NCBI GenBank assembly: GCA_022819645.1
Contig: JAJEGU010000067.1
Span: 1 to 64,000 of the forward strand
Length of the DNA: 64,000 nucleotides
Direction: 5' to 3'
From: Pseudomonadales bacterium
Lineage (GTDB): Bacteria; Pseudomonadota; Gammaproteobacteria; Pseudomonadales; Pseudohongiellaceae
Part shown: piece after piece, positions 48,818 to 54,079 of the stretch
Position numbering within the stretch: the first letter of the stretch is position 1
How the letters are laid out: every line of letters begins with the position of its first letter
The notes under the pieces: model-generated
The model's database searches: none
What the model was told of the DNA's origin: nothing
What the model saw: only the letters and a program-made list of their open reading frames with translations
Translations under genes and position numbers: made by a program

Positions 48818-49468
48818 CTAGTAAGATTGCGAAGCAGTGTCAATTCGCTTTCGCCGGCAACTCTCTGGGTGCCGTCCCGCCGGAAACAGGCGCTGCTCGA
48901 GCCTCGCCTGCCGGACCGGGTCCACGGGCCCGGCAATGGCATCCCGATAGCGCTGCAGGGCGTTGCCGCCGCTGGCGAGGTATTCCCGGAAAAACGGATG
49001 CCGGCTGAGAAACCGCGAGCCGCCGCCAAAGGCATTGAAGCTGTAGCTCGACCAGGCATACAGGCCGGGGTGACTCGCGCCACCGTGGGCCAGGGGCCAG
49101 CGTTCCATCATCTGCTGACACTCCAGCAACAACCCGGCGCTGTCGATGATGGCCAGGGAGGGCCGGTTCGGAAACACCGCGCTATGGCGTCCGAATCGCT
49201 CGTTGAAATAGTCGGAATAACAGCCATTGGCGTAGTCCAGCAGGGAAAACAGGCTTTTGGGCAAGTCCGGCGAAAGCAGCAGCCAGGCCTCGGTGGGCAG
49301 CAGCACATAGGCGTGCAGGCGCACATGGAAAACCCGGAGGCTGTTGAGCAGCCTGAGCTGAAAGAAGTCGAGGCAGGCGTCATCGAAAAACGCCGGGCCT
49401 TCGACTTTGGCGCGATTGACCACGAACCAGGCGCGTCCGGCGGTATGGGGCAGTTTTGAAGGAGGCAT
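48818..49468 (-). CDS. RAYT/Y1-transposase-like protein, catalytic residues replaced
   Basis: LHAYVLLPTEAWLLLSPDLP aligns to the family LHAYVLMPNHVHLLLTP; also YFNERFGRHSAVF, LYAWSSYSFNAFG, LSRHPFF. Confidence 0.7.
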   Translation of the reverse strand: MPPSKLPHTAGRAWFVVNRAKVEGPAFFDDACLDFFQLRLLNSLRVFHVRLHAYVLLPTEAWLLLSPDLPKSLFSLLDYANGCYSDYFNERFGRHSAVFPNRPSLAIIDSAGLLLECQQMMERWPLAHGGASHPGLYAWSSYSFNAFGGGSRFLSRHPFFREYLASGGNALQRYRDAIAGPVDPVRQARLEQRLFPAGRHPESCRRKRIDTASQSY

Positions 49469-49484
49469 GTTTCTTCCTGAAAAG

Positions 49485-51584
49485 CTATGGCAAGACCGGA
49501 GCCGCCGGTTGCGCGCCCGGCAGGTGGATCGAATTCGTTCCGAGCTTGGCCAGCGCCGGATTGTGGGTGACGAGGATCACGGCAATGCGCAGTTCGGCGA
49601 TATTGGCCAGAATCCGCCGCGCAACGGTATCGCTGAGGCAGGCAAGGCTTTCGTCGAGCAGCAACAGTTTGGGCCGCTTGTACAGCGCCCGGGCGAGCAG
49701 GACCCGCTGTACCTGTCCGGCGGAAAGGCTGTTGCCCAGCTCCCCCACCCGGGTGTTGAAGCCCAGCGGCAGGCAGAGGATTTCTTCGAGAATGCAGGCC
49801 CGGCGGCAGGCGTCTTCGAGCCTTTGCTGGTTGTAGGGTTCTTCTTCCAGATTGATGTTGTAGGCGATGTCGCCGGCGAGGAGGCCGTCGTTGTGCAGCA
49901 CCGCGGCGGCGCCTGCCCGCAGGTTTGCCAGCCCAAGCCGGGGCAGAGGTGTGTCGTCGAACCAGAGACTGCCGCTGCTCGCCGGTTCGAGGCCGGCGAC
50001 GAGTTTCAGCAAGGTGGATTTGCCGCAGCCCGAAGGCCCGGTAATCACCAGCATCTCGCCGGGCTCCACCGCAAAGTCCAGCGCCTCGAACACCGGGCGC
50101 TCGTCGGTGGAATAGCGGAAGCCGACCCCTTCGCCGCGCACCTTGCCGGAAAATGCGCGGCGGGGAAACTGCCCCAGCGGATCGGTTTCCTCGGCTTCCT
50201 CCAGGGCGATGTCGGCGATGCGCTCCAGGTCAAGCTGCATCAGCCGCAGTTCCGCCAGCTTGGGCAGCATGGCCAGCACCGAAGACGAAAAATGCTGTTT
50301 CAGAAAGATGAAGCCCATCAGTTGCCCGATGGTGAGCGCACCGTCGGAAATGAGCTGGGCGCCCAGATAAATGACGAGTATCTGCTCGACCCCGAACAAC
50401 AGGCCCTGGCCGGAACCGAACCAGAGCTGGAAAGTGCCCAGGTGATAGCCCGCGTTGGCGGAATTGACGTAATGGTTCTGCCAGTCGGCGATGCGCTGGT
50501 CTTCGATGGCGTAGTTCTTGACCACCGGAGCCCAGCGGACATTCTCCATGAGCCGGCTTTCGCTTTTCGCCGCCCGCACGATGGACTCCTGCCGCCGCAG
50601 TTTCTCCCCGGGCAGCGAAGCGAGCTTGATCAGGGCCGCCACGATCACGAAGCAGAGGCAGACCGTCGCCAGCATGGGCGAATACACATAAAGCAGGGCC
50701 AGGGAAAGCAGCGACAGCAGGCCGTCCACGAGCACGGTGATCATGTCCCCGGAGATCAGGCCGCTGATCTTCCCCGCCGAGGAAAAGCGCGACACCAGAT
50801 CGCCCATCTCGCGCCGTTCAAAGAACCGCAGGGGAAGGCTGATGAGATGCTGGAACAAGCCCGAAACCATCTCGAATCCCAGCCGGATCGCGAATTGCAT
50901 GGTCACCAGCGAGCGCACATGGCCGAGGGCGATGCGGGCGAGCATGAGCAGGCCGAACAGCAGGGCGACCACGAGCACCAGGTCCATATCGCCCCGGGCC
51001 AGCCCCTGATCGATGACGAGTTGCAGATACAGCGGGCTGAGCAGCGAGCAGGCCTGCACCAGCAGCGACAGCAGCAGGATCAGCGCCATTCCCCGGACAA
51101 TTCCGTGGGAGAAGCGAACCAGGTCTCGCAGGCGCAGGCGGCGCGGGGGCTCGGCGTTGATGATCTCGCCGCCGGCGCTGAATTCCACGGCAATGCCGGT
51201 GAAGTGCCCGTCGAGTTCCCGCAAGGGATACTTGCGGATGCCGGTGGCGGGATCGTGAATCACCACCTTGCCCCGGGAGCACTTCTTCAGCACCACGAAA
51301 TGATCGAGATCCCAGTGCAGTATCGCCGGGGTGCTCAGGCGGGGAATGTCATCGAGTTCGAGTTTCAGCGAACGGGACTTCAGCCCCGCCGCTGCCGCCG
51401 CCCGGGTCAGGTGCTTTAGCGAAGCGCCGAATGCCGGCAGCTTGCTTGTTTCCCGAATCGAGCGGATATCGGTGGTATGGCCGTAGTAGCTGACCACCAT
51501 GGCCAGGCAGGCGAGTCCGCATTCATTGGCCTCGGCCTGGAAAATCATGGGCAGGCTGTGGCGGCTTGCAAACAGTCGGTTCAC
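49485..51584 (-). CDS. Peptidase C39-containing ABC exporter (PCAT)
   Basis: QAEANECGLACLAMVVSYYG, DLDHFVVL, VIHDPATG (Cys/His/Asp present); Walker A GPSGCGKST, LSAGQVQR, LLLLDES. Confidence 0.92.
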   Translation of the reverse strand: MNRLFASRHSLPMIFQAEANECGLACLAMVVSYYGHTTDIRSIRETSKLPAFGASLKHLTRAAAAAGLKSRSLKLELDDIPRLSTPAILHWDLDHFVVLKKCSRGKVVIHDPATGIRKYPLRELDGHFTGIAVEFSAGGEIINAEPPRRLRLRDLVRFSHGIVRGMALILLLSLLVQACSLLSPLYLQLVIDQGLARGDMDLVLVVALLFGLLMLARIALGHVRSLVTMQFAIRLGFEMVSGLFQHLISLPLRFFERREMGDLVSRFSSAGKISGLISGDMITVLVDGLLSLLSLALLYVYSPMLATVCLCFVIVAALIKLASLPGEKLRRQESIVRAAKSESRLMENVRWAPVVKNYAIEDQRIADWQNHYVNSANAGYHLGTFQLWFGSGQGLLFGVEQILVIYLGAQLISDGALTIGQLMGFIFLKQHFSSSVLAMLPKLAELRLMQLDLERIADIALEEAEETDPLGQFPRRAFSGKVRGEGVGFRYSTDERPVFEALDFAVEPGEMLVITGPSGCGKSTLLKLVAGLEPASSGSLWFDDTPLPRLGLANLRAGAAAVLHNDGLLAGDIAYNINLEEEPYNQQRLEDACRRACILEEILCLPLGFNTRVGELGNSLSAGQVQRVLLARALYKRPKLLLLDESLACLSDTVARRILANIAELRIAVILVTHNPALAKLGTNSIHLPGAQPAAPVLP

Positions 51585-52831
51585 CAGATCAGTCCTCGCA
51601 GTGATCGCAGGGGTTTGAAAACAAGCCCGATCAGCGGGAGCTGGTCGGTGACGATATTGGCCTGGAACTGCATGCCGGCGAGCAGGGTGTGCTCTTCCGG
51701 GCCGCTGACGTTCTGTCGCTCAATAGCCGCCCGCACCCGGTAGACGGGCTCGTTGAGCACACTCAGGGGCAGCAGTTGCTCCCGGGGGTCGAGGCGGGCG
51801 CCGGGCACCGAGTCGATGGTGGCGCTGTAGCGGCCGTATTCGCGGTAGTCGAAGGATTCGTAGCTCAGCAGCACCTGCTGGCCGAGGGCCACCTTGCCGA
51901 TGACCCGGGAGGGCACATAGATTTCGGCGCTGAGCCGGGATTGCTCCGGGCCGAGGTAGATCAGCGGCTGCCCCGCCCGGAAGCTGTCGCCGATGCCCAC
52001 GGCAACCGTGGCCACGAGGCCGTCCCGGTCGGCGTGGAGAAAAACCGATTGCTGGGTTTCCAGTTGTCTGATTTCCGACCCAAGTTGGCCGATTTCCTCG
52101 CCGAGGGAGAGATCAAGCTGGTTCTTGGCGAGTTTCTGCTGCTCATGATCGGCTTTCAGATCCTTGATGCGAAGCTCCTGCTCGGCCGCCTGGCGGTCGG
52201 TCTCCGCCGCTTCCTGGGCGAGTTGCAGGTGCGCCGCATAGGCTTCGTCGAACTGGAAGCTGGTGATCGCGGCGGCTTCGAGCAGGGACTCGATTTGCAG
52301 CAGGTGCCGCTCGCTGACTCGGATGCGCTCGCGGAGCAACGCCTGTTTGCGCCTCGCGGTTTCCAGGGATTCTCCGGCGTGCGCCTGCAATTCCAGATTG
52401 CGGCGCAGGGCGAGTTCATGTTCTTCCTGGTGCAGCGGGACTTTCTCCCGCAAGGCGGCCCGGCGCTCGCGCAGGGCTTCGATGCGCAGGTCGTGGGCTT
52501 CGGAAAACTGGCTCACCGCGGCCAGCGACACCCGGGCCAGGGCTTGACCCGCCTCGACGGCCTCGCCTTCCGCCACCAGCAATTCCTCCACCTGTCCCGA
52601 GCCGCCAATGGAGAGTTTCTGCAGCCCTCCCACCGGCACGAGCACTCCCGGAGCCTGTTCGGTGACCTTGTAGGAAGTCAGCGTCAGCAGCAGCCCGGCG
52701 CCCACGGTAATCGCCACCAGGACAAAGACCGCATTGCGCAGCAGATTCTTTCCTCCGGCCAGGGGACGCGACTCGGCAATGCGGTACTTCTGTTGCAGCG
52801 CCTGGGGCCGGATCAGTTCATTTCTTTCCAT
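51581..52831 (-). CDS. HlyD-family secretion adaptor
   Basis: Single TM then lipoyl/coiled-coil layout; ATGA overlap with the ABC exporter. Confidence 0.88.
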   Translation of the reverse strand: MERNELIRPQALQQKYRIAESRPLAGGKNLLRNAVFVLVAITVGAGLLLTLTSYKVTEQAPGVLVPVGGLQKLSIGGSGQVEELLVAEGEAVEAGQALARVSLAAVSQFSEAHDLRIEALRERRAALREKVPLHQEEHELALRRNLELQAHAGESLETARRKQALLRERIRVSERHLLQIESLLEAAAITSFQFDEAYAAHLQLAQEAAETDRQAAEQELRIKDLKADHEQQKLAKNQLDLSLGEEIGQLGSEIRQLETQQSVFLHADRDGLVATVAVGIGDSFRAGQPLIYLGPEQSRLSAEIYVPSRVIGKVALGQQVLLSYESFDYREYGRYSATIDSVPGARLDPREQLLPLSVLNEPVYRVRAAIERQNVSGPEEHTLLAGMQFQANIVTDQLPLIGLVFKPLRSLRGLIW

Positions 52832-52855
52832 CTGGCGATCCTCAACGGCCCCGGC

Positions 52856-53098
52856 TCAGTCCTGGCCCGAAAGCTTGCGTTCGATGCGTTCCACGAGGTC
52901 TCCCACGGTTTCCACCGCAACGAGTTCCTTTTCGTCGAGTTCCACCGAGAAACTTTCCTCAAGTTCGTAAACCACCTCGAACATGGCCAGGGAATCGAGG
53001 TCGAGTTCGTCGAGTTCGCTGTCGAGATCGATGGCCTGGGGGTTCGATTCATTGCTGTAACGGGCCAGCAGGTGCAGTGTCTTGCTGCGGATGTGCAT
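52856..53098 (-). CDS. Stand-alone acyl carrier protein
   Basis: ELDELDLDSLAMFEVVYELEESFSVEL (DSL phosphopantetheine site). Confidence 0.87.
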   Translation of the reverse strand: MHIRSKTLHLLARYSNESNPQAIDLDSELDELDLDSLAMFEVVYELEESFSVELDEKELVAVETVGDLVERIERKLSGQD

Positions 53099-53939
53099 GG
53101 GATGTCTCCTGGGGTTGCGTGGCGCCCGGGGCGCCGGGTGGGATGAAATACAGCGGCAAGGCGCCGAGGTAGCGCCATTGCTCGGGATTGGTGCGAAAGA
53201 AAGGCTCGAAAAAGCGGGTCAGCGCCGCGGTCAGGCGATTGGCGGCGGCGGCAAGCGACTCGCCGCGAATCCGCTCCGGCTCAAGCTGCTCGCCGAGGAC
53301 GATCTGCCCGCGCTCGCCGTCGAACCAGTTGATCACCGGCAGCATGGGAATGCGGTTGGTGAGGCTGAGCAGCGCGGACCCCTGGGGGAAAAAGGCCGGG
53401 CGTTGCAGAAAATCAACGCTTGCCGCGCCGCCGAACTGCCCGGTCAAATCGCAGAAGGTCACGAATTGCACGCCGGGGCTGCGCAGCAACGGCGCCAGGG
53501 TGCTGATGCCGGACTCGTCGGCGATCAGTTGTGATTCCGGGCCCTGGGCGCGTTTGCCGAAAGCGCGCCCCATGTTTTGGAAATACCCGTCACTGCCCCG
53601 GGCCTGGGAGAGGTAGTACACCCTGGCCCGGTCGCCGATGCCCGCACCGAGCAGGTTGAGGCCGTAGATGTAGTCGCCGAAGTGGTAACTCACGAGCAGG
53701 CGCGACCGCGGGTCGGCTTCGATCAGTTCGCGCAATTTCCCCTTTTGGGGAAAATGCAGGCCAGCCACGAGCCGCCGCAGTTCAGGCGGCGGCAGGGGGT
53801 GGTTGCGGCGGTGCTCGAGCTGCGTCAACCACCGGTCGTTGGCGGCAAGCAGCCGCCGGGTCCGGTCGCGGGTCTCGCGCAGGCAGGTGGCGACAGCGGC
53901 GATCTGTTCCGCGGAAAATCCGGTCTTGTTGCGGGCCAT
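53049..53939 (-). CDS. LPLAT-like (LpxL-related) acyltransferase with non-canonical motif
   Basis: RLLVSYHFGDYIYGLN; FPQGSALLSLTNRIPMLPVINW; start 53939 or 53999. Confidence 0.65.
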   Translation of the reverse strand: MARNKTGFSAEQIAAVATCLRETRDRTRRLLAANDRWLTQLEHRRNHPLPPPELRRLVAGLHFPQKGKLRELIEADPRSRLLVSYHFGDYIYGLNLLGAGIGDRARVYYLSQARGSDGYFQNMGRAFGKRAQGPESQLIADESGISTLAPLLRSPGVQFVTFCDLTGQFGGAASVDFLQRPAFFPQGSALLSLTNRIPMLPVINWFDGERGQIVLGEQLEPERIRGESLAAAANRLTAALTRFFEPFFRTNPEQWRYLGALPLYFIPPGAPGATQPQETSHAHPQQDTAPAGPLQQ

Positions 53940-54079
53940 GATTGGGTCCTTGCCGAGGGGCTGGCCATAGGTGTAGGCAAGAATTTCCGGACGCGCCAAA
54001 TTTTTGACGAAAATAATTTGCGGGCCGGAAAGAACCCGCCCTGCCGGTATAATCCGGGGCTGTTGGATTCAGGAGAGAG

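Follow-up and report, generated by a model that had tools for sequence, protein, structure and literature searches.

An operon that sets an acyltransferase and an acyl carrier protein (ACP) beside a peptidase-containing exporter raises the question of what it exports, and whether the acyl-transfer pair acts on that cargo. The window (the whole 64-kb stretch of DNA analysed) contains five such ORFs at 48818–53939, all on the (−) strand, in the order LPLAT-type acyltransferase, ACP, HlyD, C39-ABC and RAYT-fold protein. The acyltransferase and ACP genes overlap by 50 bp (53049–53098) and the HlyD and ABC genes by 4 bp (51581–51584), and a 16-bp gap separates the ABC gene from the last, RAYT-like gene. 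Order, strand and spacing agree with the original prediction, which had described five same-strand genes with almost no gaps, and HMM searches placed the first four genes in the families Lip_A_acyltrans, PP-binding, HlyD_3, and Peptidase_C39 with ABC_membrane and ABC_tran, respectively. Conservation of the gene order, on which that prediction was staked, held: the identical five-gene order was found in 27 genomes, all from one Pseudohongiella-like genus, and 4 further genomes have a cluster that lacks the ACP alone, in counts drawn mostly from draft genomes and ignoring phylogenetic kinship. Because the same order recurs in 27 genomes of one genus, the cluster is more than a chance arrangement. 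Orthologues reach down to ~35% identity across the genus, and the operon is under purifying selection. No description of an acylated microcin, or of an LPLAT/ACP/HlyD bacteriocin cluster, that corresponds to the operon was found in the literature.

The HlyD-family membrane fusion protein (51581–52831, (−) strand, 416 aa) matched PF13437 at 48.8 bits and TIGR01843 at 97 bits, the latter below cut-off. The 699-aa ABC protein (49485–51584, (−) strand) has the domains of a C39-peptidase exporter of the PCAT type (PF03412, 116.6 bits; PF00664; PF00005), and its nearest solved structure is PCAT1 (4ry2, E = 1.4e-67). By inspection of the sequence, the C39 triad of Cys22, His95 and Asp111 is complete, and the Walker A/B and LSAGQ motifs are intact. 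With a Cys-His-Asp C39 domain fused to an ABC transporter and a HlyD partner, the pair is predicted to be a peptidase-exporter. Assignment to NHLP bacteriocin export was rejected on score (TIGR03796, 413.7 vs. 853.3 bits; TIGR03794, 64.8 vs. 156.2 bits).

The acyltransferase (53049–53939, (−) strand, 296 aa) is of the LPLAT, or LpxL-PatA, type (Pfam PF03279, 25.9 bits), and its AlphaFold model (pLDDT 86) has PatA and LpxM as top PDB folds. It thus shares the fold and the fatty acyl-transfer family of PatA and LpxL-LpxM, but differs from them in being partnered with a peptide exporter and in its catalytic box. Where HX4(D/E) is expected, the alignments show a conserved H-x-G-D-[FY] motif (HxG[DE][FY] in its wider form), the acidic position being taken by a hydrophobic residue; because the canonical box is absent, acyltransferase activity is not assured. 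The ACP (52856–53098, (−) strand, 80 aa; PF00550, 39.2 bits) carries its DSL serine at Ser36, which is invariant in the alignment (31/31). The original prediction had compared this pair to HlyC-type acylation of RTX toxins. The comparison is only an analogy, in the concept of acyl-ACP-dependent acylation of a type I-exported protein: the PatA/LpxM fold is unrelated to HlyC, and the candidate cargoes here are not RTX proteins but small peptides with a GG leader.

The last gene (48818–49468, (−) strand, 216 aa) had been called a dead RAYT-like gene, and both its sequence and its fold bear this out. The AlphaFold model (pLDDT 85) has the Y1 transposase TnpA-REP as its best PDB match (4er8, E = 5e-6). 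The window copy gave no match in Pfam or NCBIfam, a sequence search of the PDB returned no relative, and two orthologues matched REP_Tyr_transpos (NF047646) weakly, at E = 3e-5 and 7e-4, below cut-off. The protein thus shares fold and sequence ancestry with RAYT/TnpA-REP, relatives of IS200/IS605, but the nuclease motifs are gone: both HUH histidines and the motif Asn are lost in all 31 copies, and the catalytic Tyr, kept in 9/31, is lost in 22. By comparison, three RAYTs from the same family all retain HUH and the Y...N motif (3/3). A further difference is that its gene has a fixed place in the operon and evolves under purifying selection (dN/dS = 0.21–0.29), making it a clear case of a transposase fold retained without the nuclease.

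No GG-leader precursor is present in the window, as the original prediction had stated, and a regex scan for GG-leader ORFs adjoining the cluster found none that was conserved in the genus. Upstream of the acyltransferase gene, three short conserved ORFs (f9, f11 and f14) were rejected as precursors, being YbjQ-like, MAPEG-like and DUF1330-like by inspection. The statement does not hold for the genome, which has four such genes, three of them with the operon's promoter element. These unlinked, microcin-like candidates supersede the earlier verdict that the substrate was unknown. They belong to a set of GG-leader, class II microcin-like peptides (MREL…VxGG) that are encoded elsewhere in cluster-bearing genomes; a leader profile search listed 77 translated peptides, from which the low-scoring L114 and L115 were excluded in later counts. 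At E ≤ 0.01, GG-leader genes were found in 33/36 cluster-bearing genomes versus 11/48 without an intact cluster. With an MRE-type GG/GA leader followed by a small core, the peptides are putative class II microcins. Furthermore, 42/73 of the GG-leader genes lie within 900 bp of a gene for a small membrane protein of one of two families; neither family matched known immunity HMMs, and these are probably immunity proteins.

A promoter element ties the peptide genes to the operon. It has the consensus TTTCN5AAATTN2GCN3TYC-N12-CTA and stands 35–73 bases upstream of the operon, where the copy TTTCGTCAAAAATTTGGCGCGTCC-N12-CTA (53974–54012, (−) strand) has 0 mismatches and is the only match in 64 kb at ≤3 mismatches, against 0.14 expected from shuffling. 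Across the 3.1 Mb of the genome, only three sites match the 24-mer exactly, those of the operon, the C84 microcin gene and comM. Two other microcin genes, C70 and C28, have it with 1 and 2 mismatches, respectively. CTA, which was not part of the search, follows all five copies at exactly 12 nt. The microcin gene adjoining the second exporter of this genome lacks the 24-mer. Conversely, a motif trained solely on regions upstream of peptide genes found its best match in the window at the operon promoter. The promoter link was seen only in the window's own clade. That the microcin-like peptides share this exporter, and that their genes are regulated together with the operon, is well supported.

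More distant relatives connect the same functions. In another genus, a fatty acyl-AMP ligase, ACP, LPLAT, HlyD and C39-ABC occur together with two adjacent Ser-terminal GG-leader genes, and in two genomes from another family a Ser-terminal GG-leader gene is followed by ABC, LPLAT and HlyD. In all, the LPLAT gene adjoins HlyD/C39-ABC in three separate lineages. The idea of an acyl-linked peptide exporter is therefore strengthened, both by the conserved gene order and by relatives that join acyltransferase, HlyD and C39-ABC to GG-leader genes, one of them with the fatty acyl-AMP ligase as well. Acylation of the cargo itself is what we infer.

Most candidate cargoes share a feature that was found rather than predicted beforehand. 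The operon ABC is the sole C39-ABC detected at E ≤ 1e-50 in 23 genomes, and is thus the only candidate exporter of unlinked peptides there. All 25 peptides examined from these genomes terminate in Ser, whereas none of 13 that lie next to C39 exporters lacking LPLAT does (Fisher p = 2e-10). The counts are not independent, because 21/25 of the Ser-ending peptides fall in one low-complexity group of loosely related cores. Four singleton core groups are also Ser-terminal, as are the L098–L100 peptides. Overall, 57/77 peptides end in serine. Seven Ser-terminal peptides occur in cluster-free genomes, which indicates that the signature follows peptide families; nor is it a strict rule, since the C70 peptide shares the promoter yet ends in Arg.

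We favour, at a probability of roughly 0.6, a model in which the operon supplies one central set of machinery that matures and exports microcin-like peptides from scattered genes, its ACP and LPLAT-fold enzyme acylating them. The peptide genes, dispersed over the chromosome and often paired with a probable immunity gene, would be switched on from operon-type promoters. Before export, the ACP would deliver the acyl group that the LPLAT-fold enzyme transfers to the peptide, most likely at the C-terminal serine common to most cargoes. Cleavage of the MREL...VxGG leader would fall to the C39 domain, and export of the presumably antibacterial core to ABC and HlyD, with a TolC-type channel assumed to be encoded elsewhere. 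Having lost DNA cutting, the RAYT-derived protein might serve as a non-catalytic partner, for example by binding the precursor or its mRNA. The four cluster copies without ACP count against this model. A stricter version, with fatty acylation of the C-terminal serine by a dedicated LpxL-fold enzyme, an obligatory dead transposase and comM co-expression, seems unlikely.

The export role could be the same while LPLAT and ACP leave the peptide untouched and instead acylate a lipid of the envelope or produce a small acylated molecule, which would protect the cell itself or leave through the same channel. PatA and LpxM, the nearest folds, are enzymes that acylate glycolipids. Class-wide, LPLAT matches fall mostly in aryl-polyene-type clusters without C39/HlyD, which also implies that the operon is not widespread. 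However, Ser-ending peptides accompany only those C39 exporters that have LPLAT, and the gene keeps its place beside the exporter in all three lineages; we regard a lipid or small-molecule substrate as unlikely.

Class IIb microcins, which are modified on a C-terminal serine (PMC10233263; PMC7472721), suggest that the serine might instead carry a non-fatty group, as ACPs can hold siderophore-like or amino acid-derived groups. The operon resembles the class IIb systems (microcin E492 with MceC/MceI/MceJ, and H47) in its GG-leader precursors, C39-ABC and HlyD export, putative small immunity proteins and C-terminal serine, and in that one modification and export set can serve several microcins (PMC10233263; PMC7472721). 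It differs in that its cargo genes are unlinked and scattered, and in having LPLAT, ACP and a RAYT-derived protein in place of siderophore genes. HMM searches and inspection found no siderophore-attachment genes (MceC/I/J, IroB-like) in the operon or its conserved flanks. The Gly/Ser-rich tail of ~8–10 residues is absent from the listed C-termini (DWLS, SINS, AELTS, RWYSS). A divergent class IIb pathway is quite doubtful: the cluster genes include no glycosyltransferase, esterase or MceI/MceJ homologue, and a relative has a fatty acyl-AMP ligase. Microcin V (class IIa; CvaA/CvaB) shares the leader type and the PCAT with membrane fusion protein, but class IIa lacks tailoring genes, whereas the operon has a built-in acyl-transfer pair.

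The serine may also be a structural or receptor-binding feature, any acylation then being at the N-terminus or a lysine. The Ser-ending peptides of cluster-free genomes and the grouping of 21/25 cores fit this explanation, but the singleton groups and the L098–L100 peptides also end in serine, and we consider it improbable. That the peptides leave by another exporter while the operon handles an unrelated cargo is very improbable: peptide and operon genes are unlinked, and another C39-ABC/HlyD set, beside which lies a peptide gene of its own, is present in the window's genome, but the 23 genomes have no further C39-ABC at E ≤ 1e-50, and in the window's genome operon and microcin genes share a promoter element.

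Validated microcins come from Enterobacteriaceae (PMC10233263). If the acylated-microcin model is true, microcins would extend to a marine genus in which a single hub exporter serves many dispersed cargo genes, and an ACP together with one acyltransferase would suffice for making lipidated ribosomal peptides. Since comM shares the operon's promoter element, whether natural transformation is linked to the production of microcins can be tested directly; co-expression, if true, would couple the killing of neighbours to the uptake of their DNA.

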